A stretch of DNA of 64,000 nucleotides, taken from positions 124,001-188,000 of the forward strand of contig JAGMUV010000022.1 in the NCBI GenBank assembly GCA_020744425.1. Reading direction: 5' to 3'. Position numbers and translations under genes: made by a program. The DNA is from Dactylonectria macrodidyma. Its lineage: Eukaryota; Ascomycota; Sordariomycetes; Hypocreales; Nectriaceae. Below are positions 5,806 to 55,242 of the stretch, piece by piece (positions within the stretch are counted from its first letter, which is position 1; each line of letters opens with the position of its first letter). The notes under the pieces are model-generated. The model was not told the DNA's origin. It searched no databases and saw only the letters and a list, made by a program, of their open reading frames with translations.

Positions 5806-5850
5806 ACGTACATGATAAGCGAGTCGGAAATACAAGCGAGTCGGAAAAGC
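5806..5850. repeat. isolated Fot1/pogo terminal repeat
   Basis: Preceded by TA (5804-5805), this repeats the terminal sequence of the Fot1-like element at 7377: ACGTACATGATAAGCGAG, then a second AAGCGAGTCGGAAA. It is probably the left end of another, now decayed, copy. I did not find its partner end nearby. Confidence 0.7.
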
Positions 5851-7374
5851 ATACTGTGCAGCTAAAATAAGTAATTTTAGATTTCTTAAAACTAGATATA
5901 AGACTTATTAAGATTTAAAAACACATTTTTAGAATAAATTAGAAAAAAAGTTATAAGATAGTATTTTTTTAAAGAATTTTAAAATTTTATTAAGCTGACT
6001 ATAAGTAAAAATAGTAAAAAAAACAGTGCGAATTCTATATTACTAGCGCTATAAGTATGTATAGCTTAAAAAAATTCTTAAAAATAACGTATATTATAAA
6101 TAAGCTAGGTTTAAAATTTTAGCTATTTTAGACCTAGTTTAATTTTTTAAGAAATTTTCTAAAAATTCATTTTAAGGTGTATTTTTGTTATGGTTCTCTC
6201 TGTGTCTGACCTGAGGGATGTCGTTACCAACAGCTATACCGTCGGATATGCCTGTCGTAGTGTTTTACACTGTTACAGTTCCTTCACCTTAGTAATTGGT
6301 ACTTAGTGATCTGGTTCTGTATGTTATGTGTAAAGTCTTGATTGTCTGATCTAACTTCCAGAGTGGAAGATTTGACTATGGGCTTGTCATTTCTGCTAGT
6401 GGGAACCTGGTCCCGACCTATCCATAACAATAAGGAAGATAGGCTTTCTGAGGCATATTATATACCATTATAAAGCTAAAAATCAGGAGATTTTGAATAT
6501 GTTATGTATAGTCTTATCTAATAAGAGCTAAAGGAGATATTTCCTTATCAGTTATATATTTTATATATAAGGACTTTACATATATTCTATACTGCCTTTC
6601 TCTTATTAATACTAATCTTTCCTAATTATTACTTTTTAATAGTTTAGCTGTTACTTGTATATTAATGTCTTTTTAGTTAATTTTATCCCTTCCCTTACTT
6701 ACAGTTATCTTCCCTCTATTTTATAGCTAAGTTCTTTTTACTTTATACTATTTACTAAGAGTCTTATTTACTTATTAAAGTATCTAGTTCTCAGACTTTA
6801 ATAAGGCATTTTAATATATTATTACCTTTATTCCCTTTAAAGGTAACTTAAGTGCTTTAAGAATTAATACTAAGGAGCTGCTTTAATACTGTCTTACTTA
6901 TCTTTTGAAGTATTTAGACTATAAGCTAGCCTTAAGCACTGTCTTTAGGGTCTTTAAGACTTAAGGGTTAGGAAGGCTGGCCTTTTCTCTAACTAGTGTT
7001 AGAGTCTGTAGCTGTATATTAAGCTTTAATATAATATTTTCTGGATTTAAGGGAATAAGTCCGGCCCTTTAAAAACCCCTCTTAATATTACTCCTTATTA
7101 TAACAGCTTTATAAGCAGTATAAAAGGCTAGGAAGAACTCTGTCTTTAAAATATAAGTTATTAAGCATCTAATTAAATGCTTAATTTCTCGACTATATAC
7201 CTATTTAAGCAGCCTAAAGTACTTAATATTAAGAGGCTAAAGTAAATAAGATAAATAAAGCAGTATATAAAGTATAATAATATAATTCTCTTTATAATAT
7301 TTCTTAAAGTTAACTGAGTAATAACTATTATACCTATTAAAAATGAAAAGATAATAGTAATTAGTTAATTAGGC
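5851..7374. other. AT-rich relic DNA interrupted by the transposon nest
   Basis: Very AT-rich sequence without open frames, resembling RIP-decayed repeat DNA. It resumes at 17356-17790 on the far side of the Fot1/pogo insertion. Apart from the LTR-like block at 6186-6429 I see nothing readable. Confidence 0.5.
6186..6429. repeat. LTR-like block with TGTTATGG...CCATAACA ends
   Basis: A 244-bp segment of higher GC than its surroundings, bounded by the inverted 8-mers TGTTATGG and CCATAACA, the TG...CA form of an LTR. No target duplication is evident, so a solo LTR is only the best guess. Confidence 0.4.
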
Positions 7375-7376
7375 TA

Positions 7377-7424
7377 ACGTACATGATAAGCGAGTCGGAA
7401 ATACAAGCGAGTCAGAAAAAATCC
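7377..7424 (+). repeat. left inverted terminal repeat of the Fot1/pogo element
   Basis: Begins ACGTACATGATAAGCGAG right after TA. It is the inverse of 17306-17353 with a single visible G-to-A difference (GAGTCAG for GAGTCGG). Confidence 0.9.
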
Positions 7425-7485
7425 CTCAACTCTCCTTCTTTTTATTCAATCAATCATTTCTCAACCACCAAATATATCACAGTCA

Positions 7486-9010
7486 ACCAAAGAGGCAAAT
7501 ATTATCCTTGCCCTTCAGGCTCTTCAAAATGATCCAAAATTACGCGTCTACCCTACTGCAATATTATATAAAGTCCCGCCTAATACCCTCTATGACCGAC
7601 ATCATGGCAAACCTTCTCGAGGCGATATTATCCCTACTTCGCGTTAACTAACCGACCTCGAGGAACAGATCATTATTCAATTCATTCTCGACCTGGATTC
7701 GCGAGGATTTCCCCCGCGACTGCGTAGTATTAAAGAAATGGCCAACCGACTGCTCGCCGACCGCGACGCGTCACCTGTCGGCAAGCGCTAGGCTTCTAAC
7801 TTCGTTAGGCGACACCAAGAGCTTAAGACGCGTTTTTTTCGTAAATACGACTATCAAAGAGCTAAATGCGAAGATCTGACTATTATTCGCAAGTGGTTCA
7901 GGCTCGTGGAGAACACAATCGCGAAATATGGTATCGACCTAGCTGATATCTATAACTTTGATGAGACCGGCTTTATGATGGGCATAATCGCAAGCGGAAT
8001 GGTCATCACAGGCGCAGATAGGCGTGGAAACCCGAAATCAGTGCAGCCTGGAAACCGGGAATGGGTTACGGTCATTCAGGCGATCAATGCAGAAGGCTGG
8101 GCGATCCAGCCGTTCATCGTGGTTGCGGGCCAATATCACCTCGCTAGCTGGTACCGGGAAAGCAACCTCCCGGGTAATTGGGCTATTGCAACAACTCCAA
8201 ATGGCTAGACCGATAATGAAACAGGTCTTAAGTGGCTTAAGCACTTTGATCGGCATACAAAGAATCAATTGACCGGTCGCTATCGTCTTCTGATCCTCGA
8301 TGGGCATGAAAGTCACCACTCCGTCGACTTTAAGAAATATTATGAAGAGAATCACATTATTACGCTTTGTATGCCGCCTCATTCATCTCACCTGCTTTAG
8401 CCTCTTGATGTTGGGTGCTTTGGGCCGCTTAAAATAGCTTATGGTCGAGCAATTGAGCAATTGATCAGATGCTCTATAACTCACGTTTCGAAGACCGAGT
8501 TCTTCCCAGCCTTCTATGCTGCTCATAAAGCCGCTATGACAAAGAGTAATATTAAGGGAGGTTTTCGAGGGGCCGGACTTGTTCCCTTGAACCCAGAAAA
8601 TGTCATATCGAAGCTTGATGTGCAGCTACGGACTCCAACACCGGTTGAGGAGGAGATCAGCCTCCCTGACCCTTGGGTCTCGAAGACCCCAAAGACTGTG
8701 CTTAAGGCTAGCTCTCAGTCTGAATACCTCGAAAGACGAATGAGAAGATATCAGAACAGCTCTCCAGCATCAATTCTTAAGGCGCTTAAGTCACTTTCAA
8801 AGGGAACGAAGGCGATAATGCATCAGAACGCCTTATTAAAGTCTGAAGTCCAGATCCTTCGACAGGCAAATGAGACTCTTAGCAAGCGGCGCAGAGCGAA
8901 AAGAACCCGCCTACGTAAAGGAGGGAAGATGACTCTAGATGAGGGAAGGGGTGAGATAGATCAGAGAGATGTTAATGCACAGGTAGTAGCTGAATCGTCG
9001 AGAAGTAGTG
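7486..9010 (+). pseudogene. Fot1/pogo DDE transposase, N-terminal and catalytic part
   Basis: One frame runs from the N-terminal helix-turn-helix region (TKEANIILALQALQNDP), through a CENP-B/Tc5-type HTH (LTDLEEQIIIQFILDLDSRG), to the DDE_1 core. Catalytic acidic residues are in YNFDETGF and LLILDGHESH, followed by MPPHSSHLL and PLDVGCFGPLK. A basic, leucine-rich tail follows. At least four in-frame stops occur: two near 7650 and 7790, one at about 8206 where Trp is expected, and one at about 8398 where Gln is expected. The changes fit C-to-T/G-to-A mutation. The reading is cut at 9010 by the chromovirus and resumes at 17129. Confidence 0.88.
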
Positions 9011-9446
9011 TGTAACGGTCGTGTTCCCAGGCTAACCTGTACGTGGTATAGGGTAGCTCGGAAAGGGTTCCTAAGGGATAGACCAGGGTCTATGTTAGCA
9101 GAACGGTTAGGTCACACTTACTGAGCGGTAGTCGTAGTGTTACGTTAGGTAATAGTCAATGTACGATGATGCGTAGCAGTCAGAGTAGATTGAGGTAACC
9201 AAGTTGTATTGATAGCTGAGGAGCTGGTGTCCTAGTGACAGCCAGTTCCTCGGGTTTATATACTATGTAGTATGAGGTTCGATCACCTTAGTTACAGGGG
9301 TGATCGCAGTGATCACAGAAGTGATCACGGTGATCACGGGAGTGATCGCGGTGATCGCTCCACAGTTCGCTGTGATCGCTCGTAATTGGTGAGAAATTTG
9401 TGGGGGCCACGTGACGTCAGGCGTCTACGTTGCACGGGTCGTGACA
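9011..9446 (-). repeat. 3' LTR of the chromovirus
   Basis: 436 bp. In element orientation it begins TGTCACGACC and ends GACCGTTACA. It contains the GTGATCAC array, the TATA box and the presumed R start seen in the 5' LTR. Confidence 0.95.
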
Positions 9447-9560
9447 CGATGTCTCCCCTCCGTTGGTCCTTGTCCCCAAGGCCTACAAGTCGGCCGTCCC
9501 AAGTTTCTCCCTGGTTTGTCCAACCTTCCCCTGTAATTATTTTTCCGTAATGCTGACAGC

Positions 9561-10165
9561 ATGTCGAAGGTGAAATCGCAATCCGCCGCGCGTCGTCATC
9601 GTCTCTACGAACTTATTGAAGAAATGGGCTCCGAGGTTATCGAGTGCTCAAATTGCGCTCAACGGAAGTTGAAGTGCAAAATGCTCGAGGGCATTTCCCG
9701 CTGTTCTGAGTGCGTTCGTCGCGGACGTTCTTGTGACGGCTCGGGGGAGTCGATCTCCGTATGTGAGTGTCTGTTCCTGCTTGACAAATTTTGTGTTTTT
9801 GTGTTGACCGGGCAGCTTCCCGTCTGACGGCTGAAAAGCGCCGTTTAGAGTCCGAGGAGGAACAAGCGGAAGAGGAGTTGATAGAATTGCAACAGCAAAT
9901 GAATGAGCGTTTGTCTCGTCTGATGCGGCTTCGTCGTCAACGAAAACAGCTTCAAGAGAGAGGCGTGGAGATGGTGCGTCGGGGGCTTCGTTCCCTGGAC
10001 GAGTTGGATGAGGCGGAGCGCCAAGAGGCTGATGCGGTCATCGAGGTTCAGGCCCATGGTGGGGTGGATGCGATCGATTGGTCCACTATGTTTGATTTTG
10101 GTGCTGCTTCTTCATCTTCCGGCGTTGCGCATGGAACGTCTTCAGTAGACGTTGCGCGTGGATGA
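9561..10165 (+). CDS. Zn2Cys6 plus coiled-coil protein encoded antisense inside the chromovirus
   Basis: Two exons, 9561-9762 and 9816-10165, joined by a 53-bp intron with GTGAGT donor and CAG acceptor, give 183 residues. Residues 29-58 form a canonical fungal binuclear zinc cluster, CX2CX6CX8CX2CX6C (C29, C32, C39, C48, C51, C58), starting CSNCAQRKLKC. From about residue 70 there is a long, highly charged coiled coil (Glu/Arg/Leu-rich), then a Ser-rich tail. The gene is transcribed opposite to gag-pol, between the 3' LTR and the end of pol, and overlaps the last 80 bp of pol tail to tail. A plausible role is DNA binding or regulation for the element or its target, but this is inference. Intact frame, exact zinc spacing and a splice that keeps phase argue that it is a real gene. 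Confidence 0.75.
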
Positions 10166-13100
10166 GGTTTTCCGGTGGTTGCCACGATGTTTCGCTTTCA
10201 GGGTAGTCTTTCCACTTTATGAGGTACATTGTTTTACCGTCGATTCTCTTCATGTCGCGGATTTCTTCGACGTGGTACTCTTCTGGTGATTCGACTTCCG
10301 GTTCGTGGTTGTAGCCGTTGTTGACCATGATGGTTCCTTTCGTAGGTTCCAGTAGTGATACGTGGAAAACGGGGTGTACCTTGACCTTTGGTGGTAGGTC
10401 TAACCTGTAGTTGTTTTTTGAGATTTTCTCCAGAACCTTGTAGGGGCCGATGAATTTGTAGTCGAGTTTTTTGCTTGGTCTGTCCGTTGTGAGATTTTTT
10501 GTTGCTAACAGGACCATGTCCCCTTCCGAGAAGGATGGTCCCTCCAGCCTTTTCTGGTCGTAATATTTTTTCATTTGGTTTCGTACAAATTCGAGTTCGG
10601 TTTTCATTTCTTCGTGGAGATTCTTCAACTTGTCTGACGTCAGGATTGCTTTCGGGTTGATGATTCCGTCGCGTGGCGTGTGGTACGCGTCAGGTGTGAA
10701 TCCGAAATTGGCGTAGGATGGCGTGAGCTTGGTGCTTTCATGTACCGAAGTATTGTAACTTAGCTGTGCCGTTGGTAACTTTTCTACCCAATCGTTTTGT
10801 TCGTAGTTGATGTAGCATCGAAGATACTGCTCGAGTATCTGATTTGTGCGTTCCGTCTGTCCATCGACCTGTGGTCGGAATGCCGTTGTAAGGCGGTGAT
10901 TCAATCCCATCTGGGCCATCAAGGCTTGCCAGAATTTGGATGCAAACGGGGGTCCTCTGTCGCTTAGGATCTCCGTTGGTAAGCCGTGTACGCTGACGAT
11001 GTTCCGTAGGAACAGGTAGGCGAATTGTTCGGCATCCGTTGATTCGTGATAAGGTATAAAATAGGAAAATTTCGTGAGTCTGTCCACGATGACAAGAATG
11101 CTGTCATAGAAGGTACCATTCGCTGGGTCTTCTGACAGGGGTAACTTCGTAATGAAATCCATAGTGATGGAGTCCCATGGTCGCTCAGCGACTGGTAGGG
11201 GTTGTAGCTCTCCATATGGTTTGTGGCGTCGTGCCTTTGTTTTATCGCATGGTAAGCATTCCTTGATGACTTCCGTGACGATTTTCTTCATTCTAGGAAA
11301 AGTGTATGTCGTTTTGACTCGTTTAAGGGTTTTGTTGATTCCTTGGTGTCCGTGTAGGAGATGTACATGCATATCTCGTACTAGCGGTTTCTGTAATTCC
11401 GGGGGAACTCGTAGCCTCCGTGGTTCGAGTTGTGATTCGGGAATTGGGCAGGGTGCTCCTGTTACTCTGTCCATCTCGTATGTCTGATTGTATTCCCGTA
11501 TTCGTTCGTGAAGTGTTTCTTGGGACACTGTTGCTGCGACTTGGACTGTTTTGTCGAGTTCGTCGACCCATTTGAGTTTCTTTCGTACCTTGTTGGGTTC
11601 GCAGTTTCGGTGATCGCCTATCTCCCAGCACTCCTTTGCGTGTTGGTCGATGAGATCGTGGGGGCATCGATTGCATTGTCCCATGTGACTGATGCATGCT
11701 GATGTGAGGTCGCCGTGGAAATACTGGCTGAGTTTCTTGGCTAGGGTCCAAGGGTTCCCGTGGTGGTTGCCCTGATGGAAGTAAGCGATTGCTTGGGATC
11801 CTTGTGATCCTGTCAAGACTGCTTTTCCTTCCTGCCACAGTAGTTCTCTCGGGGCTGGTTGAATGTCGTGTATCCATTGTTCGAAGCTTTGTTCGGGCGT
11901 CTGTAGTCGTTCCAGCAAGTCCTCCGGTAGCCTGGACTCGCTTACTGCCGCAATGTACTTCTGCTTCAGATGTCCTTCGGGGGTGTAGGTCAATACCTGT
12001 TCGTTGACCTTGGGTATGTCTATTTCGAAGTCGGGTCGTCTACTTATCGCGTCGGCTCGTCCGTTTTCTGAGCCTTTCTTGTGGATGATGACGTAGTCAA
12101 ATTCTGATAGGTACTCCGCGTAGCGAAGTTGCCTTCCACTGAGCTCTTGGGTGGTAGCGAAGTGTGAAATGTTCTTGTGGTCCGTGTACACGGTGACCTG
12201 GTGTTCGCTTCCTAAGAGGTAGTGTCGGAATTCTTTGAAAGAATTGACTATCGCCAAGAATTCCTTGTCGTAGATGGGGTAGTTGAGTTCAGCTCCCTTC
12301 AGTGTGCATGAGTAGAACGCGATCGGGTGTAGGTTTCCTTCGTCGTCCCGTTGTCCAATCTGGGCTCCCAGGGCGAAGTTGGAAGCGTCGGTTTCCAATT
12401 CGATCGGTCGTTTTGGGTCAAAGGTTGCCAAAACGGGTTCACTGAGGATGGCTTGTTTCAAGTCGTTGAAGGCTTTCTGGGCCTTTGGGTTCCATCTGAA
12501 TTCTACTTCTTTCTTCGTGAGTTCTGTCAAGGGTTTCGCGATTTTGCTGAATCCGCGAATGAACCTTCGGTAGTAATTGGCGAATCCTAGGAAGCTCTGT
12601 ACTTCCTTGACACTCTTGTCAGGTCTCGGCCAATCCTTGACAGCTTCGATTTTCTTTTTGTCCATTCGGATCTCGTTTGGTCGGATGGTATGTCCGAGGA
12701 AGTCCACTTCCTGTGCGTGGAACTTACTCTTCTCTGGTTCAACGAGTAGTTTTGCGTCTTGCAGCTTTTGCAACACCTTGTGGACGTGTTCCGTGTGCTC
12801 TTCTTCCGTGTCGGAGAAGATCAGGATGTCGTCTAGATAGCATACGACGAAAATGTCGAGGTGTTCTCTCAAAACGTTGGTGATCATCCGTTGGAAGGTC
12901 GCCGGTGCGTTTGTGAGTCCGAAAGGCATTACCAGGTATTCGAACAATCCAAACTTGGTTCGAAACGCTGTCTTCCATTCGTCTCCAGGCTTGATGCGGA
13001 CCAAGTTGTAAGCGCCTTTTAGGTCGAGCGCCGTAAACCACTTCTTACCGTGAAGGCGATCCCTCAGTTCGGTAATCAGGGGTAACGGTGTTCGGTCTTT

Positions 13101-14276
13101 GTTCGTGATGGCGTTCAACTGTCGGAAATCCACAACTAGTCGGAGTTTGCCGTTCTTCTTGGGAACGAACATGACAGGGTAACCTGCGGAGGATTTTGAT
13201 ATCCTGATGTATCCTTTTCGTAGCATTTCTTCGAGGTATTCCTTTAGCGCTTGAAGCTGAACTTCGTTGAGGTTGTAAAGTTTGAAGAACTTGGGTGAAG
13301 TTCCGTCTTTCAACACAATGTCGTGGTCCCATTCACTGTGTTCGGGTAGACCTGTTTCCAGTTCTTCGGCAAACAGTTTCTCATAGATGCGGTAAGCAGG
13401 TGGTATGTTTTTCAGCCTGTCGTCTGCTTCCGATTGTTTCTTCATTTCTGCAAGGTCTTTGTCGAGTTTTGTCAGTTGACTTCGTACAAAGGCGATGGTG
13501 CGGCGTGTCTTGCTTCGTCGGGCTTTGCGGTGTTTGTATTTCGTGCCTCGGGGTGGGAAAGTTTCTGTCGTTTCTTTCGCCGATACTTCGCTGGTGCCGT
13601 GGTCAGTCGAAGTTTGAGATCTCGTGTCGTCGTCTGAATCTGATTCCCAAGAGGAGTGATCATCGACGTCGTCGAAGTTCACTTGGCCAGTCCTCCAGTT
13701 TATCATTGGGTTAACTCGTTTCAACCATGGGTACCCTAGAACCAAAGCGTGGTGCGCAACAGGTATAACATCGAACGAGATTCCTTCGTTTCGTCCTTCA
13801 ACGAAAACCTTGAGATGATCAAGCTCTTTGGTTATTCTTCCGCTGTCGTAAGCGAACGGGGATCCTTCGAGGTTTTGTACTCTGTACGGATTTGCTTTGT
13901 CCTTCCATGGAAGTTTCAATGTATTCACCACTGCGGGGTGGATGTAATTGAATTCTGCGCCGCTGTCTACCAAGGCGGGCAGCCAGTTTCCCTTGATTCG
14001 TACCTGTATTTCTAGGTACCGTTTTGTCGTTTGTGCGCTTTTGGTCGCACATAGAGCTCTTGTTTCGAGGGGTTCCGCTTCCCCTAGCTCTGTGCCTATC
14101 TGTTGCTCTGTTACAGATGGCGTCGGGAGTTTTTTGTATTCTCCGTTGTTCCGTCTCGTGAGGGTCGAAATGTCGGTCTGCGATTGTGCTCGTGCCACGC
14201 ATTGACCTTGTCGTATACATGTATCTGGCATTCGGGTCGTTGGCAATCGGTGAATTTGGCATCGAGGTGTTGACAC
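10086..14276 (-). CDS. pol: chromovirus Pol polyprotein (PR-RT-RH-IN-chromodomain)
   Basis: An open frame of 1396 codons, entered by -1 frameshift from gag. Domains in order: aspartic protease with ALVDSGAEFNYIHP (Asp about residue 103); reverse transcriptase with FTALDLKGAY and the catalytic YLDD (about 480-483); RNase H starting at ETDASNFALG; integrase with an HHCC zinc finger (HLLHGHQG...CLPCDK) and the core DFITKLP...LSDRGPPF...ERTN. A C-terminal chromodomain has YLIKWKDYPESETSWQPPENL-type sequence. The chromodomain usually steers integration to marked chromatin. The N-terminal 46 codons upstream of the slip site are probably not translated as such. No internal stops; the tail overlaps the antisense zinc-cluster gene. 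Confidence 0.95.
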   Translation of the reverse strand: MSTPRCQIHRLPTTRMPDTCIRQGQCVARAQSQTDISTLTRRNNGEYKKLPTPSVTEQQIGTELGEAEPLETRALCATKSAQTTKRYLEIQVRIKGNWLPALVDSGAEFNYIHPAVVNTLKLPWKDKANPYRVQNLEGSPFAYDSGRITKELDHLKVFVEGRNEGISFDVIPVAHHALVLGYPWLKRVNPMINWRTGQVNFDDVDDHSSWESDSDDDTRSQTSTDHGTSEVSAKETTETFPPRGTKYKHRKARRSKTRRTIAFVRSQLTKLDKDLAEMKKQSEADDRLKNIPPAYRIYEKLFAEELETGLPEHSEWDHDIVLKDGTSPKFFKLYNLNEVQLQALKEYLEEMLRKGYIRISKSSAGYPVMFVPKKNGKLRLVVDFRQLNAITNKDRTPLPLITELRDRLHGKKWFTALDLKGAYNLVRIKPGDEWKTAFRTKFGLFEYLVMPFGLTNAPATFQRMITNVLREHLDIFVVCYLDDILIFSDTEEEHTEHVHKVLQKLQDAKLLVEPEKSKFHAQEVDFLGHTIRPNEIRMDKKKIEAVKDWPRPDKSVKEVQSFLGFANYYRRFIRGFSKIAKPLTELTKKEVEFRWNPKAQKAFNDLKQAILSEPVLATFDPKRPIELETDASNFALGAQIGQRDDEGNLHPIAFYSCTLKGAELNYPIYDKEFLAIVNSFKEFRHYLLGSEHQVTVYTDHKNISHFATTQELSGRQLRYAEYLSEFDYVIIHKKGSENGRADAISRRPDFEIDIPKVNEQVLTYTPEGHLKQKYIAAVSESRLPEDLLERLQTPEQSFEQWIHDIQPAPRELLWQEGKAVLTGSQGSQAIAYFHQGNHHGNPWTLAKKLSQYFHGDLTSACISHMGQCNRCPHDLIDQHAKECWEIGDHRNCEPNKVRKKLKWVDELDKTVQVAATVSQETLHERIREYNQTYEMDRVTGAPCPIPESQLEPRRLRVPPELQKPLVRDMHVHLLHGHQGINKTLKRVKTTYTFPRMKKIVTEVIKECLPCDKTKARRHKPYGELQPLPVAERPWDSITMDFITKLPLSEDPANGTFYDSILVIVDRLTKFSYFIPYHESTDAEQFAYLFLRNIVSVHGLPTEILSDRGPPFASKFWQALMAQMGLNHRLTTAFRPQVDGQTERTNQILEQYLRCYINYEQNDWVEKLPTAQLSYNTSVHESTKLTPSYANFGFTPDAYHTPRDGIINPKAILTSDKLKNLHEEMKTELEFVRNQMKKYYDQKRLEGPSFSEGDMVLLATKNLTTDRPSKKLDYKFIGPYKVLEKISKNNYRLDLPPKVKVHPVFHVSLLEPTKGTIMVNNGYNHEPEVESPEEYHVEEIRDMKRIDGKTMYLIKWKDYPESETSWQPPENLIHAQRLLKTFHAQRRKMKKQHQNQT

Positions 14277-16627
14277 TTCGTAGGGTAATCCTCATCGTAC
14301 TCCATGAGTTGTGCGATCCCTAGGTTTTCGTACCATTTCCTTACTCGGTAGTCTTCCATATCTTCTACCTCGTAGGGTTTCATCACTGGTTGACCATTTA
14401 CTCGTACCGGGAAACAGTCTTGCTTGAGCTTCTCCGCGAGGTGCGTGGTGCATTGTTGGTAGATGCACGAAGCCCATGAGATTTCCTTGTGTTTCCGGTG
14501 TTCCCAGTGTACTCGAGGGTCGTCTCCCCTGAGTCGTCGTTCGGTTGGGTTTCGTGGATTTCGTCCGTCGTTCCGATGTAGAGCTCGGATGTATATGTCC
14601 GCTTCTTCCGTAGGGTCCTGTGTTTCCCTGGCGAACTGTTCGATTTGGACGTCTTCCATCACGCGTACTAGCGCGTCTTGTTCTTCCGGAGTGATGCTTC
14701 GAAGGTCATCATCGGATTCCGGGTATTCGTCTGCTGGTGCGAGGATGTCTTCGTCCTCGATGTTGTACCCGGCTTCCCTTGCCTGGTGTACGTCTCGTCC
14801 TGCGCTAACTTGTCGTGGAAAGTAGCTGCGTGTTGCACCGCTGTCCATCATGGCAGGTCGCATTTGTGGCCTGTTCGTGTCGGTCCATTCGTGATCGGGT
14901 TGTCGGTCTGGGATCTCGAAGTCGTCGAAATCTTCCATTTGCGTTGGATTCTCCCTGAGTTGTCGGACCATAGCGATGGTATGACTTTCGTTGTTAGGCC
15001 GGGGCGCGATAGGTGGGTATCCTGTGGCTTGTGTGCCTGGGATGGCTGTCCATTGCTTGGCAGGTTTCTTCCCATTCTTTTGATCCCTTTTCTCCTTATG
15101 CTCGTCCTTATGCCTGTGGTAGCTGTCTCGCTTTATTCGCAGGCGGTGCTCTCGTCTGTCAGGATTCTTTTCCTCCTGTTCTCGTATTTGCTTCCATCCG
15201 GTCAGGTTTGAGTTTGTGCCTGGCCTGATCGCTCCTGGTTCCAGAAGTTCCTTTGTTCTGGGGTTGTCGGTGTATTTCAGGTCTTCCATCCAGTCCCACG
15301 GTGGGGCTGCGCCGTTGAAGGTTCCGTCGAAGCCGCTTCGGGTCATGTTGATGGATCGGACTGGGAGTTCGTCGTCCTTTTGCATCTTGACTGAATTGAT
15401 GTTGCGGGTAGGCGTGGTGATGGGCTTGAATGGTTTCTTTTCCCTCCTTGGTTTTTTGCAGTCGCGTGAAAGGTGTCCTGGTTCGTCGCAGTTGTAGCAT
15501 TTGAACGTCTTCTTTCCCTGCTGGTGACGTTGCTGCACCGCTCCGAGTTCCATTGGTCCTGCTGCAGTACCGTAAGAAGTGTTGGGGGTTCGTTGTTTCC
15601 CCTGGTTGGCATAGTTCTTCTTTCTCCAGCCGCTACTGCTGGCGTTGCCGTTTCGTTTTTCCATTCGTCGTTCGAAGAGTCGATTATCGATGGTGACGCA
15701 CAGTTTGGCGTAAGCGTTGAAGGTGGTGGGTAGTGTCAGGATCTTGGACACTTCGTCTTTGACCTCATCCTTCATTCCTCTGTAGAACTCATCGATTGTT
15801 GTTTCTTCGTCCCAACTGAGCTTGGCCAAGTGGTATCGAAATTCCGTGAGATATTCCGACATTGCTCGCTTTTGATCCAGTTTCCGGATCGCTTTGAGAG
15901 CGTCGTGTTTCTCGTCCCATTCGCCGTAAGTGTCGATGAGTTTTTCTTCGTACAGTCTGAAGTTCCCAAAGAGCTCCTTGGTTTCGACACGGCGACTATC
16001 GTAGGGGTTCTCGACGAAGTCTCTCAAGATTGGTTCGAGTCCGCGTAGGGCCTTTCCTTCGAGCAGGCTCATTGCATGTCTGACCTTCAGTTCTTCGTTC
16101 GCGAACATGGTAGGGTAGTACATGAAGTATGATTTGAGCTGCGTGAGGTGCTCGCGAAGGTCCTTGGGGGTACCGTCGAACTTAGTTGGCATTGGCGGTT
16201 TGAGGGTTTCTCCAGCGTCACGAGGTCGTGCCTGCTGGGCTGGTGCGTTAAACCCGGTGAATTGTTCCGCCTGGCGCTGCTGTTCGTTCCTAGCAGCGGT
16301 TTGAGCTGTAGACAACTCCACGATTCGTGCTTCAAGAGCAGCGATGGTGTTTGCGACGTTCGGGTCTCGAACAGGGTTCTCCTGTTGAGTTCGAAGAGCC
16401 GCGAACTGCGCTTCGTAGTGCTCGTGCGCTTCGTGGTTCAGCTTAGACATGTTGATCATTTCGTTGCTGAGGCGTTGGTTCTCAGCACGAAGTGCGATGA
16501 TCTCTTCATCCTCGTCTCCGGACGAGTCCATGTCTCGGTCTCCGTCTGGGTCCTGGGCCCTACGCTGAGTAGCGGGTCCCTTGCCCTTGGAGGAGCCAGA
16601 GCTGGTAGTGGGAGTTGCGGGTGCCAT
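14111..16627 (-). CDS. gag: chromovirus Gag
   Basis: Starting at the ATG at 16627 (TTATGGC context; an in-frame ATG at 16675 lies 48 nt upstream, too near the LTR) this gives 838 residues. It has an Ala/Ser/Asp-rich N-terminus, a coiled coil (ALRAENQRLSNEM), and the retrotransposon-gag capsid region (FDGTPKDLREHLTQLKSYFM). A basic linker follows, then one zinc knuckle CYNCDEPGHLSRDC (CX2CX4HX4C) at about residues 392-405. A long charged C-terminal part with a DSGATRSYF segment and further Cys/His residues makes it larger than most Gags. It forms the particle and binds the RNA. The last 166 nt overlap pol. Confidence 0.92.
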   Translation of the reverse strand: MAPATPTTSSGSSKGKGPATQRRAQDPDGDRDMDSSGDEDEEIIALRAENQRLSNEMINMSKLNHEAHEHYEAQFAALRTQQENPVRDPNVANTIAALEARIVELSTAQTAARNEQQRQAEQFTGFNAPAQQARPRDAGETLKPPMPTKFDGTPKDLREHLTQLKSYFMYYPTMFANEELKVRHAMSLLEGKALRGLEPILRDFVENPYDSRRVETKELFGNFRLYEEKLIDTYGEWDEKHDALKAIRKLDQKRAMSEYLTEFRYHLAKLSWDEETTIDEFYRGMKDEVKDEVSKILTLPTTFNAYAKLCVTIDNRLFERRMEKRNGNASSSGWRKKNYANQGKQRTPNTSYGTAAGPMELGAVQQRHQQGKKTFKCYNCDEPGHLSRDCKKPRREKKPFKPITTPTRNINSVKMQKDDELPVRSINMTRSGFDGTFNGAAPPWDWMEDLKYTDNPRTKELLEPGAIRPGTNSNLTGWKQIREQEEKNPDRREHRLRIKRDSYHRHKDEHKEKRDQKNGKKPAKQWTAIPGTQATGYPPIAPRPNNESHTIAMVRQLRENPTQMEDFDDFEIPDRQPDHEWTDTNRPQMRPAMMDSGATRSYFPRQVSAGRDVHQAREAGYNIEDEDILAPADEYPESDDDLRSITPEEQDALVRVMEDVQIEQFARETQDPTEEADIYIRALHRNDGRNPRNPTERRLRGDDPRVHWEHRKHKEISWASCIYQQCTTHLAEKLKQDCFPVRVNGQPVMKPYEVEDMEDYRVRKWYENLGIAQLMEYDEDYPTKCQHLDAKFTDCQRPECQIHVYDKVNAWHEHNRRPTFRPSRDGTTENTKNSRRHL
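14129..14135 (-). other. -1 ribosomal frameshift slippery heptamer A AAA AAC
   Basis: In gag frame the element-sense strand reads ACA AAA AAC TCC, so the heptamer is in the exact X XXY YYZ register. Slipping -1 here moves ribosomes into pol, which lies in the -1 frame and is open across the site. Gag would otherwise stop about 18 nt downstream. A G/C-rich stem with outer AGAGCT/AGCTCT pairing lies about 35 nt further on, rather far for a classical stimulator. Confidence 0.85.
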
Positions 16628-16676
16628 AACAGCTTGTCGGTTATTGCTCAGCGTATAAGGTAACCGTCTGAACAAG

Positions 16677-16685
16677 AGCTATCAA
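16677..16685 (-). other. putative self-priming primer-binding site
   Basis: Two bases inside the 5' LTR the element-sense strand reads TTGATAGCT. Its exact complement, AGCTATCAA, lies in the LTR at 16886-16894, about 40 nt after the TATA box, where the RNA should start. This is the arrangement of Tf1/sushi-group elements, which prime minus-strand synthesis with the 5' end of their own RNA. I see no complement to a tRNA 3' end (TGG...) here. Confidence 0.55.
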
Positions 16686-16687
16686 CG

Positions 16688-17123
16688 TGTAACGGTCGTG
16701 TTCCCAGGCTAACCTGTACGTGGTATAGGGTAGCTCGGAAAGGGTTCCTAAGGGATAGACCAGGGTCTATGTTAGCAGAACGGTTAGGTCACACTTACTG
16801 AGCGGTAGTCGTAGTGTTACGTTAGGTAATAGTCAATGTACGATGATGCGTAGCAGTCAGAGTAGATTGAGGTAACCAAGTTGTATTGATAGCTGAGGAG
16901 CTGGTGTCCTAGTGACAGCCAGTTCCTCGGGTTTATATACTATGTAGTATGAGGTTCGATCACCTTAGTTACAGGGGTGATCGCAGTGATCACAGAAGTG
17001 ATCACGGTGATCACGGGAGTGATCGCGGTGATCGCTCCACAGTTCGCTGTGATCGCTCGTAATTGGTGAGAAATTTGTGGGGGCCACGTGACGTCAGGCG
17101 TCTACGTTGCACGGGTCGTGACA
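16688..17123 (-). repeat. 5' LTR of the chromovirus
   Basis: 436 bp, matching 9011-9446 at every position I compared. In element sense U3 carries an array of GTGATCAC-type sites (about 16975-17055), then TATATAAA at about 16932-16939, then the presumed transcription start near 16894. The PBS follows directly below 16688. Confidence 0.95.
16975..17060 (-). promoter_or_regulatory. GTGATCAC-site array in LTR U3
   Basis: Seven or so near-identical palindromic sites (GTGATCAC, GCGATCAC and close variants) spaced about 11 bp apart, upstream of the LTR TATA box. The same array is at about 9298-9383 in the other LTR. One-helical-turn spacing and the position in U3 suggest clustered binding sites for a dimeric transcription factor; the factor is unknown. 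Confidence 0.6.
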
Positions 17124-17128
17124 TAGTG

Positions 17129-17247
17129 GTCGAGGGAGGTCGGCGATGCCGAGGGAAAGGCGCTGTGGAAATTGCGGAAAGGCGGGTCATAATATAAGGA
17201 CCTGTCAAGTTATAATTAAGACTTCTGAAGAAGAGGATAGCGATTAG
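17129..17247 (+). pseudogene. Fot1/pogo transposase C-terminus with CCHC zinc knuckle
   Basis: Directly after the second TAGTG duplication the transposase frame continues for about 39 codons to TAG. It reads ...RRCGNCGKAGHNIRTCQ, a CX2CX4HX4C knuckle, then an acidic EEEDSD end. Such knuckles are common at the C-terminus of fungal Fot1-like transposases. The phase matches the frame left at 9010, so the chromovirus cut the gene just upstream of the knuckle. Confidence 0.82.
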
Positions 17248-17305
17248 TTTTAATTGATTGAAGTTGTTGTTATGTTTTTATTGAAGTTTTTATTTTAATA
17301 GTGTG

Positions 17306-17353
17306 GGATTTTTTCCGACTCGCTTGTATTTCCGACTCGCTTATCATGTACGT
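17306..17353 (-). repeat. right inverted terminal repeat of the Fot1/pogo element
   Basis: Ends ...CTTATCATGTACGT followed by TA; inverse of 7377-7424. Confidence 0.9.
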
Positions 17354-23727: not shown

Positions 23728-23884
23728 TATTCGATCGAATCTTGGCATCGAATCGAATGACAGGTGCTTGATTCGATATCGAATCTATGGGAGACGTGCT
23801 GGACTCGAATCGAATGCCAAGCCATCGAATCGAATGGCAAGGCCGGGCATTCGATTCGATAGATTCGATAGATGTCTAACCCTG
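23728..23884. repeat. TCGAATCGAATG-rich subterminal array and hAT right end
   Basis: Eight or more copies of ATTCGA/TCGAAT in both orientations in about 150 bp, ending at the CAGGGTTAGACATC terminus. Clustered short motifs next to the end are typical transposase-binding subterminal repeats of hAT elements. Confidence 0.6.
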
Positions 23885-49824: not shown

Positions 49825-52800
49825 TCACGGCGACCTAGCACTATGGGGAATCCGACCACCTCTACCACTTTTCGACGGAAAGTCTGTTGGCTGTGCTTTT
49901 TTGATCATGGCCCTGACGTCATTCTGTTGGTTATAGATAGAAAGTCTCCTGATATCCTCTGACATGTTAATACAGGAGTCGCCGTCGTCAATGTACCAAC
50001 TCAATTGTTCATTAAAACTTTGTTGGAGTAAAATCCCGTATAGGGACGGGACGTAAGGGCCGTTGAGAAGGGTGCGATAGAATTCTGCATGTCTTCTCAG
50101 CACAGCCTCTGCGACCCATCGGACGTGCTCGTCCTGGTGCTCCAGTCGCGCTGCTACCGCCTTGAGGATCTCCTCAGGCAACGCCGGCTGGCTACCTAAG
50201 GCTTGGGCGGCGGCCCTTCGGACGTGCCAGTCCTGGTCCTCTAGTCGCGCTGCTACTGCCTTGAGGATCTCCTCAGGCAACGCCGACTGGCTACCTAAGG
50301 CTTGGGCGGCGGCCCTTCGGACGTGCCAGTCCTGGTCCTCCAGTCGCACTGCCACCGCCTTGAGGATCTCCTTAGGCAAGGCTGACTGGCTACATAAGGC
50401 TTCAGCAGCGGCCCTTCGGACATAGTAGCCCTCGTCCTCCAGTCGCGCCGCCACTGCCTTAAGAATCTCCTTAGGTAAGGCCGACTGGCGACCTAAGGCA
50501 TCGACAGCAGCCCTTCGGACGTCCTCGTACTGGTCCTCCAGTCGCGCCGCCACCGCCTTGAAGATCTCCTCAAGCAAGGCCGACTGACCACGTAAGACTT
50601 GGACGGCGGCCCATCGGACGTCCCTGTCCTGGTGCTCCAGTCGCGCCGCCACCGCCTTGAGAATCTCAGGCAAGGCTGACTGACTACGTAAGGCTTTGAT
50701 GGCGGCCCATCGGACGTCCTTGTCCTGGTCCTCCAGTCGCGCCACCACTGCCTTGAGAATCTCCTCAGGCAAGGCTGACCGGCTACATAAGGCTTCGGCG
50801 GCGGCCCTTCGGACGTCCTCGTCCTGGTCCTCCAGTCGTGCTGCCACCGCCTTAAGAATCTCCTCAGGCAAGGCCGACTGGCTACATAAGGCTTCGGCGG
50901 CGGCCCTTCGGACGTCCTCGTCCTGGTCCTCCAGTCGCGCCGCCACCGCCTTGAGAATCTCCTCAGGTAAGGCTGACCGGCTACATAAGGCTTCAGCGGC
51001 GGCCCTTCGGACGTCCTCGTCCTGGTCCTCCAGTCGCGCCGTCGCCGCCTTGAGAATCTCCTCAGGCAAGGCCGACTGGCTACGTAAGGCTTCGGCGGCG
51101 GCCCTTCGGACATAGTAGCCCTCGTCCTCCAGTCGCGCCGCTACCGCCTTAAGAATCTCCTCAGGCAAGGCCGACTGGCGACCTAAGGCATCGACGGCGG
51201 CCCTTCGGACATCCTCGTCCTGGTCCTCCAGTCGCGCCGCCACTGCCTTGAGAATCTCCTCAGGCAAAGCCGATCGACTACATAAGGCTTTGATAGCGGC
51301 CCTTCGGACGTTCTTGTCCTGGTGCTCCAGTCGCGCTGCCACCGCCTTGAGAATCTCCTCAGGCAAGGCTGACTGGCTACATAAGGCTTCAGCGGCGGCC
51401 CTTCGGACGTCCTCGTCCTGGTCCTCCAGTCGTGCCGCCACCGCCTTAAGAATCTCCTCAGGCAAGGCCGACTGGCGACCTAAGGCATTAACAGCAGCCC
51501 TTCGGACGTCCTCATACTGGTCCTCCAGTCGCGCCGCCACCGCCTTAAGAATCTCCTTAGGCAAAGCAGACTGACTACATAAGGCTTCGGCAGCGGCCCT
51601 TCGAACGTCCTCGTCCTGGTGCTCCAGTCGCGCCGCCACCGCCTTAAGAATCTCCTCAGGCAAGGCAGACTGACTACATAAGGCTTTGATGGCGGTCCAT
51701 CGGACGTCCTTGTCCTGGTCCTCCAGTCGCGCCGTCACCGCCTTGAGGATCTCCTGTGGAATTGTGGCCCGTTTGGTTAGCGACTTCAGGATAGTTCTCT
51801 TCGTATCTTCAGACCCTTCATAGAATGCCATATCCAGGGCCAGTTCGGGAAATTCCGCTTCGCTTGCTAGGTTGGCAGTGTGTCGGAATGTGCATTCAAA
51901 CAGGAGCCATTTGGACAGCCGTTGTTCTAAGTTCCCTCGAATTGGTAAGTCGCTCGATACTTCGCTCAAGCAATGCATAACCAGCCGTTGATGTGTAGGA
52001 CCCAAAAGGTCAAGCGGTTCCTCCTCGATTATGTGGATGAATAGGCCCGCCTGGCCGTCTGCGTCGAGCAAGCCGGCAACAAAGCGCCACAGGATATCGT
52101 AGCGGGCCGTGTATTTATATGTCTGAAGGAACTTAACAGGATCGATGGCAGAATCGGTGGAAGGATCGGGGTCCACGTTCCTTCGACTCCTGATACGTAG
52201 ACATTCGAGGGGCTCTCTGGCCTTCCACTGCCGTGTAAAATACCGCGCCGCAAAGTACTCCTGAAAGGTCAGGTGTATAAAGTGGTACTCTCGGTCCTGG
52301 ACCTTTAGTGATGGGTCTGATGTGCGCAGGAATGAGAGTCGTGGAAGCGTCTTATCTAGTAAGAGTTCCTTGGACTTGAAGTGCTTAGATACAGCGCTCC
52401 GATGCTCTGACGTAAAGTCTATCACATCGTTATGCAGTCCAGTGAAAGCAAGGCCTTCAAGGAAGTATACCTCATCAGGGACAAGGTCTTCGATACCTAC
52501 GGTCTCAATTTGGAAATTTGTCACCAGTTCTCCATCATGTTTCTTCCCCAATCGTATCACGTCCTTCTTCCATAACTTTTCTTCGATAGCTTTGTAAATG
52601 CCAGTCATCGTGTCCGGCACGGCTCTGCGATTGAAGTCGCCCCAGGTGTAACAAAGCGCATCCAGTTGAATTGGGATTCGCATAAGACCCTGGATGAGCC
52701 AATGGCCTCGAAGGAATGATTGAACCTCGTCGGCCTTTTTGAAATTGACTTCGTCTGTATCTGGATTGGCGAAGGCTCTTTCGATATAGGCCTTTACTTG

Positions 52801-54555
52801 ATCTGGGTAAAATCCGATCGTTTCCAGCACGAGGTCGAGACGCTGGTGAGCCGGAAGAGTTGCAGACGGGCGGGATGTAATAATAACGTTGGGCTGATCT
52901 AAGAGAGCCCTGAGAAACCGGAACATATCACTCCCGCCTCCTAAGTCTTGAGATACTTCATCCAGGCCGTCGAGGAGAAATAGAGTCCTGTCACTCTTGG
53001 TCTCCAATGCGTGGGACATTTCTTTAGCGAGATCCGATCTACTGTTCGACAGAGAGAAATACTCATGACGAAAGAGATCTTCAAAGTTGTATCCCGGTAC
53101 CAGGCGTCTTTCGTCTAGTTTCAGATTCCGCAGAGGCACCCAAAGGACGCGGTCAAATAACTGGCTCCATTCGACCCATGTGCCTTGGGAAAATTCATAG
53201 ACAATCTTTTTGCACAGGGTAGTCTTCCCCGCTCCGGCGCGTCCTCGAATCAAGATTCGTCTGGGTCTTCTCTCCCCGTCAGGTCCTTTGCGTGGGTTGA
53301 AAAGTGTCGACAATTCGACCTGGGTCGTTTTGTCTGGTGTCTCAACCTTCTGTCGAGCGAATAATGAAAACGGGGAGGCCGTTACGTCTCTTTCCTCTAC
53401 GCAACCTATGTCTTGGCCAGACTGCTCCACAATGGCGAGGTTGATGTAGCACTGATCCATCGGCAGCAGGTCGCCCGAGAGTCGTTCAATCTTAAGGTTG
53501 TTCGCAGTATAGCGTTTCTCGCGTATCCAGGCATCCGCTTGCTCGATCGGTCGCCCCTCTCGAATCTTCTGAAGAATTGTTTGGATTTTTCCTGCAACAA
53601 CGTCGTAATCCGGATCTTCGGGCCCGAAGAATTTATTCATCATTACGTGACGTCGTTTGAGTGGCAGTGGCTCTGGGACAATGTCCAGAGTCGCTGAGCT
53701 CCTGTCAACCAGCTGGTGCGCGTTAGCAAATTTCCACCTACTGAACAACGACGTAGGACGGGGACAGAGGCGGCACGGCGAGCATTCCATAAAACTTACC
53801 GGATTTGCTGCTTGTAGCCAAGGTGACAGAAACTTGCGCTTAAGATTCGTTTTGCCGGTTTCGTAGAAGTTGAACACTTCACAAGGATGATCCTTATCTT
53901 GACACAGCTGAGTGAACCTGCGCACGAGCTCCTCGAGAGCGAAGGTCGATCCGTTCGCGCTATCAAGCAGTTGGGTCACTGACCGGTTTCGGAGCGAAGC
54001 CCAGGCCTTCAGCCTCGGTTCTGCCCAGGCGGCTATATCTTGGAATGCAGTCCCCCGGAACGGCGTAGCCAGGAAAACAATGCCGCGCGTCGCTTTCCTG
54101 AGAGAGGTATAGTCGCCTTGTAGGTTATCAGCCATAACGAGAGCCTTCACCAAGATGATGCCTCCGAGACACGACGCGATGAAGAGAATTGGCCGATCTT
54201 TGCCATGGCCATCTGATGCCAAGGGACGTATCATGTTCTGGATACCAGCGAGCAAACGCCGAGCAAACTCCTCGACTGTCCACGGAGTCGAGTCTGAATC
54301 TTGAAATAGGTCGGCCGGCCAGTCGCAGGTGAAGATCCGAGCCTGTCCCACAATGCTTGGGAGCATCTTTGAGTCTTGCAGCCAGTTGACTTGCTTCTTG
54401 GCATCGTTGCGGTCTTTCCATATCCACGTGTCCGGGGACCTCGTGTCCAGGCCATGGATGGCAATGATGTCGATGTCTGTGTTCATGTTCTTGTCAACAG
54501 GGTAGACTTGAACAAGCCCAGCAGGGCGTGTCTGTTGGCCTGTATTGACGGCCAT
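49825..54555 (-). CDS. NLR-like NACHT protein with N-terminal hydrolase-like domain and HEAT-type repeats
   Basis: From ATG 54555 the frame is open to 49825. An 87-bp in-frame intron (53799-53713, GTAAGT...GCTAAC...CACCAG) is likely, giving 1547 residues. Residues 28-250: alpha/beta-hydrolase-like (SesB-type) domain with IIAIHGL and ASCLGGIIL, where Cys129 stands in the nucleophile position usually Ser. NACHT: Walker A GRAGAGKTTL (about 409-418), Walker B LFLLDGLDE (about 496-504), IITSRP. C-terminus: 17 repeats of 33 residues (core EILKAVAARLEDQDEDVRRA, then AAEALCSQSALPE), HEAT-like, almost identical at DNA level. This architecture is that of fungal NOD-like receptors in non-self recognition and cell death. 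The role here is inferred. No disruption seen. Confidence 0.9.
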   Translation of the reverse strand: MAVNTGQQTRPAGLVQVYPVDKNMNTDIDIIAIHGLDTRSPDTWIWKDRNDAKKQVNWLQDSKMLPSIVGQARIFTCDWPADLFQDSDSTPWTVEEFARRLLAGIQNMIRPLASDGHGKDRPILFIASCLGGIILVKALVMADNLQGDYTSLRKATRGIVFLATPFRGTAFQDIAAWAEPRLKAWASLRNRSVTQLLDSANGSTFALEELVRRFTQLCQDKDHPCEVFNFYETGKTNLKRKFLSPWLQAANPVSFMECSPCRLCPRPTSLFSRWKFANAHQLVDRSSATLDIVPEPLPLKRRHVMMNKFFGPEDPDYDVVAGKIQTILQKIREGRPIEQADAWIREKRYTANNLKIERLSGDLLPMDQCYINLAIVEQSGQDIGCVEERDVTASPFSLFARQKVETPDKTTQVELSTLFNPRKGPDGERRPRRILIRGRAGAGKTTLCKKIVYEFSQGTWVEWSQLFDRVLWVPLRNLKLDERRLVPGYNFEDLFRHEYFSLSNSRSDLAKEMSHALETKSDRTLFLLDGLDEVSQDLGGGSDMFRFLRALLDQPNVIITSRPSATLPAHQRLDLVLETIGFYPDQVKAYIERAFANPDTDEVNFKKADEVQSFLRGHWLIQGLMRIPIQLDALCYTWGDFNRRAVPDTMTGIYKAIEEKLWKKDVIRLGKKHDGELVTNFQIETVGIEDLVPDEVYFLEGLAFTGLHNDVIDFTSEHRSAVSKHFKSKELLLDKTLPRLSFLRTSDPSLKVQDREYHFIHLTFQEYFAARYFTRQWKAREPLECLRIRSRRNVDPDPSTDSAIDPVKFLQTYKYTARYDILWRFVAGLLDADGQAGLFIHIIEEEPLDLLGPTHQRLVMHCLSEVSSDLPIRGNLEQRLSKWLLFECTFRHTANLASEAEFPELALDMAFYEGSEDTKRTILKSLTKRATIPQEILKAVTARLEDQDKDVRWTAIKALCSQSALPEEILKAVAARLEHQDEDVRRAAAEALCSQSALPKEILKAVAARLEDQYEDVRRAAVNALGRQSALPEEILKAVAARLEDQDEDVRRAAAEALCSQSALPEEILKAVAARLEHQDKNVRRAAIKALCSRSALPEEILKAVAARLEDQDEDVRRAAVDALGRQSALPEEILKAVAARLEDEGYYVRRAAAEALRSQSALPEEILKAATARLEDQDEDVRRAAAEALCSRSALPEEILKAVAARLEDQDEDVRRAAAEALCSQSALPEEILKAVAARLEDQDEDVRRAAAEALCSRSALPEEILKAVVARLEDQDKDVRWAAIKALRSQSALPEILKAVAARLEHQDRDVRWAAVQVLRGQSALLEEIFKAVAARLEDQYEDVRRAAVDALGRQSALPKEILKAVAARLEDEGYYVRRAAAEALCSQSALPKEILKAVAVRLEDQDWHVRRAAAQALGSQSALPEEILKAVAARLEDQDWHVRRAAAQALGSQPALPEEILKAVAARLEHQDEHVRWVAEAVLRRHAEFYRTLLNGPYVPSLYGILLQQSFNEQLSWYIDDGDSCINMSEDIRRLSIYNQQNDVRAMIKKAQPTDFPSKSGRGGRIPHSARSP
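50090..51760 (-). repeat. 17 tandem 99-bp units inside the NACHT gene
   Basis: Seventeen units of 99 bp (one lacks a codon). Variation concentrates at unit residues 12-17 (DQDED, DQYED, DEGYY, DQDWH, HQDKN) and 22-27 (AAEALC, AVDALG, AIKALC). Units 6-7 and 13-14 repeat the same unusual pair, pointing to block duplication. Confidence 0.9.
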
Positions 54556-55242
54556 GACTGGTGGGGTAGAGAGCTTGAACCCAGGCGTCCTTGCGAATGA
54601 GAAGGGTCCAAGCTCTAGCACTCGACGGGGGGCGGTTTGGAGCGTCAAACTCTGAGAAACCCCAACGGAAAATAGACACCACCATCGAAGGTGGAATTGG
54701 CAGCGCACAAGAAATTGGGAAGCAGTTGGGCAGATTTGGGCAGCGACGTCTCTTAAGGTACGACAGGACTGATCAGCTGAAATTAATAGCCGTCTTTGGT
54801 CGGGCAGTGCCGGGCTGCATGGTGCCTCTGGCGCCCAATAACATTGTCGATCTGATGCGCCACAGCGCTTCGGTGTGGTATCGCAGGCGCTGCGCCCGCC
54901 ACTGCCCCTGCTGACTCTCGGGACGAGTGATGACTCTTGGGACAAGTGATGCCAGTCTACGCCCTGTTATTCTGCCGTATAGAAAGCTGTGCGAAACAGC
55001 AGGTGGTAGTGGCACAACGATAAGTGGCAGTGGCACACCGATGAGTGGCCTTCGAGTTGTCACAGCCCATCCAGAATATGCAACAGCGTCCGGTTGCAAC
55101 AATTTGGGCACGCACTTTTCAAAGGCCTAGATCTAGAGATGGGTGCCAGTCAGCAGAGTCCGGTATTGGCCCATCGCAGTTTCTATTACCAGCCGGTTTC
55201 TTCCTAATAATTATACTAATAGCATGCTCCATTCTCCATCAG
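54556..55242. other. divergent promoter region of the NACHT and two-TM genes
   Basis: Open reading continues upstream of the chosen NACHT start to 54945, but without family sequence. Contains a short near-repeat (GTGGCA...CACACCGATG) at about 55005-55045. The first exon of the two-TM gene may lie here. Confidence 0.4.

Follow-up and report, generated by a model that had tools for sequence, protein, structure and literature searches.

The closest described counterpart of the gene considered here is brtn, an antisense gene of the Boty retrotransposon that was reportedly described by Zhao et al. in Virology in 2011. As far as the accessible parts of the published accounts go, Boty-like retrotransposons of Botrytis cinerea are long terminal repeat (LTR) elements with gag-pol and a chromodomain, and brtn is an extra antisense gene between pol and the 3' LTR (PMC7264820, PMC8365987, PMC4227169, PMC5987419). 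A comparable arrangement occurs in a 64,000-nucleotide stretch of the Dactylonectria macrodidyma genome (assembly GCA_020744425.1, contig JAGMUV010000022.1, positions 124,001 to 188,000; hereafter the window, whose coordinates are used throughout), where a full-length chromovirus of 8.1 kb (9011-17123, minus strand) carries an antisense gene for a small protein of the Zn2Cys6/coiled-coil type. We propose, with somewhat more confidence than doubt, that this factor binds sites in the U3 (unique 3') region of its own LTR and in this way regulates, most likely activates, transcription of the family's copies.

Antisense genes in this place are not confined to fungi. A review, in the portion available, lists antisense extra open reading frames (ORFs) of plant elements with the same place and orientation as the window gene (Grande gene23, RIRE2, Retand and PvRetro13), describes Grande gene23 as transcribed from a promoter upstream of the gene with a nuclear product, and calls the function of antisense additional genes unknown (PMC7264820). 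The plant ORFs are described there as without clear likeness to known proteins, except for an SMC domain in PvRetro13 (PMC7264820), whereas the fungal protein has a recognisable DNA-binding module. These published examples, together with brtn, correct the statement of a preliminary description of this DNA that gag-pol retrotransposons normally have no such gene. By position and orientation between pol and the 3' LTR, the window gene is of the brtn type. The available accounts of brtn, compared by description only, mention no Zn2Cys6 motif or LTR sites, and no Botrytis-named protein occurs among the database matches of the window protein.

Two viral proteins and one class of fungal factors offer further comparisons. 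HBZ of human T-lymphotropic virus 1 (HTLV-1) is an antisense, spliced, coiled-coil nuclear regulator expressed from the 3' LTR of an animal retrovirus; the likeness is by analogy only, since HBZ is a bZIP protein rather than a Zn2Cys6 protein. The foamy virus transactivator Tas (Bel1) has a sense-strand gene and is not known to be related to the window protein by sequence. Gal4/Hap1/Put3-type factors share the succession of zinc cluster, short linker and coiled coil (9 of 9 entries of a second-look list), whereas the window protein scores weakly, is very short, lacks the middle regulatory domain and is borne by a retrotransposon. Tas, as presented in the excerpt available, is an element-encoded activator that binds DNA and works on the LTR (PMC517496), and would be a working analogue, though only an analogue, if our proposal is right. 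An antisense LTR promoter of HTLV is likewise mentioned in the part of the review at hand (PMC7264820). Within the literature searched, whose coverage excluded most subscription papers, no Zn2Cys6 or LTR-regulating gene was found in fungal retrotransposons. Overall, an antisense gene at this position is of a known kind, whereas lineage-specific U3 clusters accompanying a Zn2Cys6 gene are apparently new.

The antisense gene and its conservation

The gene runs on the plus strand from an ATG at 9561 to a stop at 10163-10165, between the 3' LTR and the end of pol, and encodes 183 residues. Exon 1 (9561..9762) specifies the N-terminus and the Zn2Cys6 cluster (C29, C32, C39, C48, C51, C58), the intron (9763..9815, 53 bp, GTGAGT...CAG) is in phase 1, and exon 2 (9816..10165) encodes a long coiled coil followed by a DAIDWSTMF motif. 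The pol stop (10086-10088, minus strand) places the final 80 bp of the gene inside pol. The two-exon frame, the cysteine spacing, the splice 9762/9816 and the overlap all proved exactly as first described. The spacing is CX2CX6CX8CX2CX6C, within the Zn2Cys6 pattern CX2CX6CX5-12CX2CX6-8C. The spliced product aligns with database members, and in the splice model that we chose for a related family, C, the antisense gene is interrupted at the matching site by an intron of the same phase. An intron on the antisense strand does not conflict with retrotransposition, since the genomic RNA is of the opposite strand. Judging by eye, we ascribe the conserved tail around SSxVAHG to the part of the gene that overlaps the chromodomain-coding end of pol.

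A DNA search of the 77.3-Mb genome recovered 22 copies of the gene, every one with an LTR directly upstream. Thirteen carry an identical gene. In each of these the two LTRs are identical, the 5-bp duplications match, the antisense frame is intact and the 1401-residue pol frame is open; 12 of the 13 also have the full gag frame. These copies, which we call family A, are a recent burst; the remaining nine have diverged, mostly in a manner like repeat-induced point mutation (RIP).

The gene is under purifying selection and belongs to the element. Outside the pol overlap, the window copy and the diverged copy L022 differ by 33 synonymous and 8 nonsynonymous changes, with 7, 3 and 31 differences at codon positions 1, 2 and 3, giving a ratio of nonsynonymous to synonymous rates (dN/dS) of 0.057 (Fisher p 2e-16), a value that rests on this one comparison, with many transitions and one changed cysteine in the L022 gene. 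The 13 family A copies, with identical genes, could not serve for this purpose, nor could most older copies, with their RIP-like transitions and many stops. Inside the overlap the pattern is reversed (1 synonymous, 7 nonsynonymous; too few for a test), as expected because the pol frame dominates there. Outside the overlap the gene is not evolving neutrally, and 13 full-length copies keep an intact frame, in keeping with the preliminary description of a gene carried by the element. In family C (e.g., L042, L049-L055), exon 2 lacks a stop in 6 of 10 loci and the reverse transcriptase (RT) matches (n = 10) contain one to four stops each; we make no claim of selection for this family because the mutations are RIP-like and uneven.

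Relatives of the protein retain its signature. All six cysteines are kept in 116 of 161 database matches, with this exact type of spacing in 110; among the 45 that lack them, 35 are shorter than 150 residues, and cysteines have also been lost from a few full-length proteins, P0039 and P0071 among them. In a set of 16 divergent sequences picked by us, all six are invariant. Zn2Cys6 proteins contact DNA through the segment between the second and third cysteines and in most cases bind paired sites as dimers joined by a coiled coil. Across 35 sequences this segment is the most variable of those between cysteines (2.56 bits), while that between the fifth and sixth is among the least (0.55 bits). 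The suggestion that homologues lie antisense to chromovirus pol holds for most loci of this genome: we gathered 95 gene-like loci by hand and scored 150 RT loci out of 280 candidates, and an opposite-strand RT lies 2.2-4.5 kb downstream in 85 of the 95, with 83 of the 150 RT loci paired to an antisense gene-like locus. The other ten have no RT partner within 6 kb. No free-standing host homologue was recognised among the 95 loci. In a metagenome, too, the gene adjoins an LTR: ORF P0075 opens with a translated stretch that nearly matches family B where its LTR ends and its purine tract lies, and then continues into the gene start. An IMG/VR search gave 14 pattern matches, none coding for a relative. 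A PDB profile search gave 24 matches, mostly coiled coils, at E 0.014 or worse, with no Zn2Cys6 chain.

Repeated-site clusters in U3

The U3 part of the 3' LTR (9011..9446, minus strand, 436 bp) contains a cluster of eight GTGATC/GATCAC sites, mostly GTGATC[AG]C, at 9281..9377, three of which are the full GTGATCAC. We propose these as binding sites of the factor. The cluster lies at least 184 bp ahead of the antisense ATG and, read in the sense direction, also upstream of TATATA (9257..9262, minus strand), the likely TATA box of the sense promoter. The identical 5' LTR (16688..17123, minus strand, 436 bp) sets the same cluster upstream of gag-pol. The palindromic U3 sites noted at the outset are therefore real, and GATCAC is more clustered in the window LTR than in every one of 400 shuffles.

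Related lineages with the gene show a cluster in the same LTR place. Relative to the RT of family A, that of family B (L041) is 86% identical and that of family C (L042) 75-81%, while their antisense proteins share only 27-42% identity with one another and their LTRs 49-50%. The leading short-word cluster differs in each LTR: GTGATC[AG]C in A, GGAGCGA in B and GAGTGAGC in C. All three begin at LTR position 269-276 (0-based), with the TATA box 23-80 bp downstream in the sense direction and the antisense ATG 184-282 bp downstream in the antisense direction. The clusters of A and B exceed 400 of 400 shuffles at word lengths k = 6, 7 and 8. Lineage E (L056), the fourth, is RIP-mutated; its LTR contains seven copies of GGATT, of which six fall at 215-341, immediately past the TATA box (shuffle mean 0.8). 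The word was picked after looking, and this degraded lineage agrees weakly with the pattern.

Genome-wide, paired GTGATCRC sites number 110 + 106 against 1 + 1 for the reversed pattern and, among the matches listed, fall mostly inside family A LTRs. Two full clusters occur without a gene copy (G000 C8:880715-880773 and C12:102657-102715); these are probably solo family A LTRs and possible targets of the factor. Between L022 and the window LTR, changes affect 4 of 54 motif positions, 12 of 66 spacer positions and 22 of 316 positions in the rest of the LTR (L025 was excluded, as its gene and LTR align in part only). The motif positions have thus changed less than the spacers and no less than the LTR remainder, which offers weak support for conservation.

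Five copies first taken as gene-less provided controls, as 35 overlapping 430-bp windows beyond pol with 400 shuffles each. None reached 0 of 400; the lowest values were 7 at k = 6, 11 at k = 7 and 212 at k = 8. Two candidates were dropped: L044, which consists mostly of repeated sequence resembling an inserted transposon, and L043, which has a 1.2-kb gap with antisense frames between LTR and pol. The region of L048, with other ORF-bearing sequence behind pol, was left out. Of the sound families, L045 and L046 are one (140 of 147 residues; LTR of 168 bp ending next to pol), and L047 has an LTR of 193 bp, separated from pol by some 60 bp or more. A cluster was looked for in these LTRs and none was seen (90 to 400 of 400 shuffles).

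The element and its genomic surroundings

The element has the order protease, RT, RNase H and integrase, a C-terminal chromodomain, LTRs and a target-site duplication, as in chromoviruses (Ty3/Gypsy elements with a chromodomain). Its gag and pol frames are both open: pol (10086..14291, minus strand) spans 1401 residues from stop to stop, and gag (14111..16627, minus strand; 838 residues from the first methionine, with a CCHC knuckle) overlaps it in a different frame. A purine-rich stretch (9447..9466, minus strand) adjoins both the 3' LTR and the 5' leader of the antisense gene and is likely the polypurine tract. The 5-bp duplication TAGTG flanks the element at 9006..9010 and 17124..17128.

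The chromovirus has inserted at the 3' terminus of a transposase-like gene (7373-9015 and about 17124-17350). A terminal sequence, ACATGATAAGCGAGTCGG..., is found at 5810 and again at 7381, with an inverted copy near 17316-17348; because it lies on both sides, once inverted, we place the chromovirus inside a DNA transposon. A Pfam search with the two transposase fragments beside the chromovirus gave no match at E 0.001. Inverted arms of 741 nt (6630-7370 and 8267-9007) are 73% complementary and probably reflect a second copy of the same transposase, altered by RIP, next to the better preserved one. Elsewhere, a ATCGAATC repeat cluster at 23728-23880, whose repeat pair recurs at 7 places in the genome, looks like the subterminal repeats of a DNA transposon; its flank presumably encodes the C-terminus of a hAT transposase. 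A 1713-residue frame at 49825-54966 combines a NACHT domain with many HEAT repeats that resemble one another; it is possibly a fungal incompatibility gene of the NOD-like receptor type with amplified repeats.

Proposed function and alternative explanations

We propose the following course of events. An antisense transcript would be made and spliced from the strand opposite gag-pol, probably with the 3' LTR as a bidirectional promoter; expression from this LTR is plausible. The small Zn2Cys6 protein would dimerise through its coiled coil and bind the repeated sites in U3, upstream of both the gag-pol TATA box and its own start. The C-terminal acidic/aromatic motif (DAIDWSTMF; (V/I)DWxxxF) of the window protein and its near relatives is taken by us to resemble an activation domain, and by its binding the factor would control, most likely activate, transcription of all copies of its own family. 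A regulator of the LTR encoded by the element itself is the simplest account because a different protein accompanies different sites in the same LTR place. This pairing in related lineages lends some weight to the earlier suggestion that the protein binds the palindromic sites, binding itself being predicted. The same description had offered a DNA-binding regulator or a targeting factor. A selected element gene of the Zn2Cys6/coiled-coil type upholds the first part; targeting through the sites finds no such backing, as they number 5 in 16,743 flanking bases at 13 insertions, against roughly 8 expected (an estimate assuming equal base frequencies). We suggest more tentatively, at a little under an even chance, that an ancient lineage of fungal chromoviruses runs a private circuit in which the DNA-reading segment of each family's antisense factor changes with its own U3 cluster, switching on only kin.

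Several results weigh against this proposal. The PF00172 (Zn_clus) profile scores 18.7 bits against a cut-off of 21 and matches at E 0.01 or better in only 7 of 35 members. The (V/I/L)DW motif occurs in only 32 of 116 six-cysteine relatives. Family C has three sites only and exceeds all 400 shuffles at k = 8 alone, its k = 6 value being 116 of 400 (25 of 300 in another run) and a different top word leading at k = 7 (14 of 400). Unbiased tests of lineage E are weak (6 to 19 of 400 shuffles; 17 to 147 of 500 by another count), and a control window with 7 of 400 at k = 6 surpasses both C and E for words of that length. The gene-less controls are thin, at two families, and their short LTRs leave less room for sites. 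All compared lineages come from one genome, and a strong short-repeat cluster occurs in 1 of 10 other window segments, at the end of a DNA transposon. In the related chromovirus family of L043 (RT 60% identical), antisense frames at 1354-2570 contain KCSRCSKNGKPC, one half of a cysteine cluster, together with a tail that is acidic and helix-like; they are possibly a divergent zinc-cluster gene of a second type. No cluster is present in 349 bp of its LTR, whose outer end may be missing, so that the cluster rule would not be general if this gene is homologous. The U3 sites could also serve a host factor.

The alternative that survives best is a change of sign. As a self-limiting repressor, the protein would bind its own LTR and lower transcription as copy-number control, a variant that we consider unlikely and whose probability overlaps with that of our proposal. 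Sites close to the TATA box fit repression equally well and nothing separates the two signs, but (V/I)DWxxxF in its acidic context presumably resembles activation domains, and the burst of 13 copies, all with an intact gene, speaks for little restraint; we weakly favour activation.

The protein may instead act after transcription, in nuclear entry of the preintegration complex, packaging of RNA or cDNA, or choice of integration site. The pol chromodomain is in favour of this, chromodomains being a known targeting device. Such roles are also proposed for antisense genes, and the gene23 product is nuclear, in the part of the review available (PMC7264820). We hold this option to be improbable, as it accounts for neither the U3 clusters nor their change between lineages, and the sites are not enriched at insertions. 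Comparably low is the probability that the protein regulates host genes or host silencing while a host factor reads the clusters. In its favour, Zn2Cys6 proteins are the main class of fungal transcription factors, and a few GTGATCRC pairs lie outside known copies. Against it, among the matches listed, which run to contig C15, three pairs are isolated, and the others are in family A LTRs, the L022 LTR and the two full clusters without a gene copy. Nor would a host factor explain lineage-specific cluster sequences, though lineages could use different ones.

Control of the element by double-stranded RNA, with the transcript rather than the protein mattering, is very improbable: an antisense-RNA role is proposed for plant antisense genes in the accessible review text (PMC7264820), but the low dN/dS and the six cysteines of 116 of the 161 matches indicate strong protein constraint. 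A chance or decaying frame, suggested by small size only, is already refuted by the 13 intact copies, the same dN/dS and the cysteines invariant in all 16 divergent sequences and kept in the 116.

If the private circuit exists, antisense genes of retrotransposons would be lineage-specific regulators of their LTRs. If our proposal of a self-encoded LTR regulator is right, families could carry matched pairs of factor and sites that diverge together. This would help to explain how related families coexist in one genome, separately escaping or following host control. With a recognisable DNA-binding module and specific candidate sites in three lineages of one genome, the function becomes directly testable.
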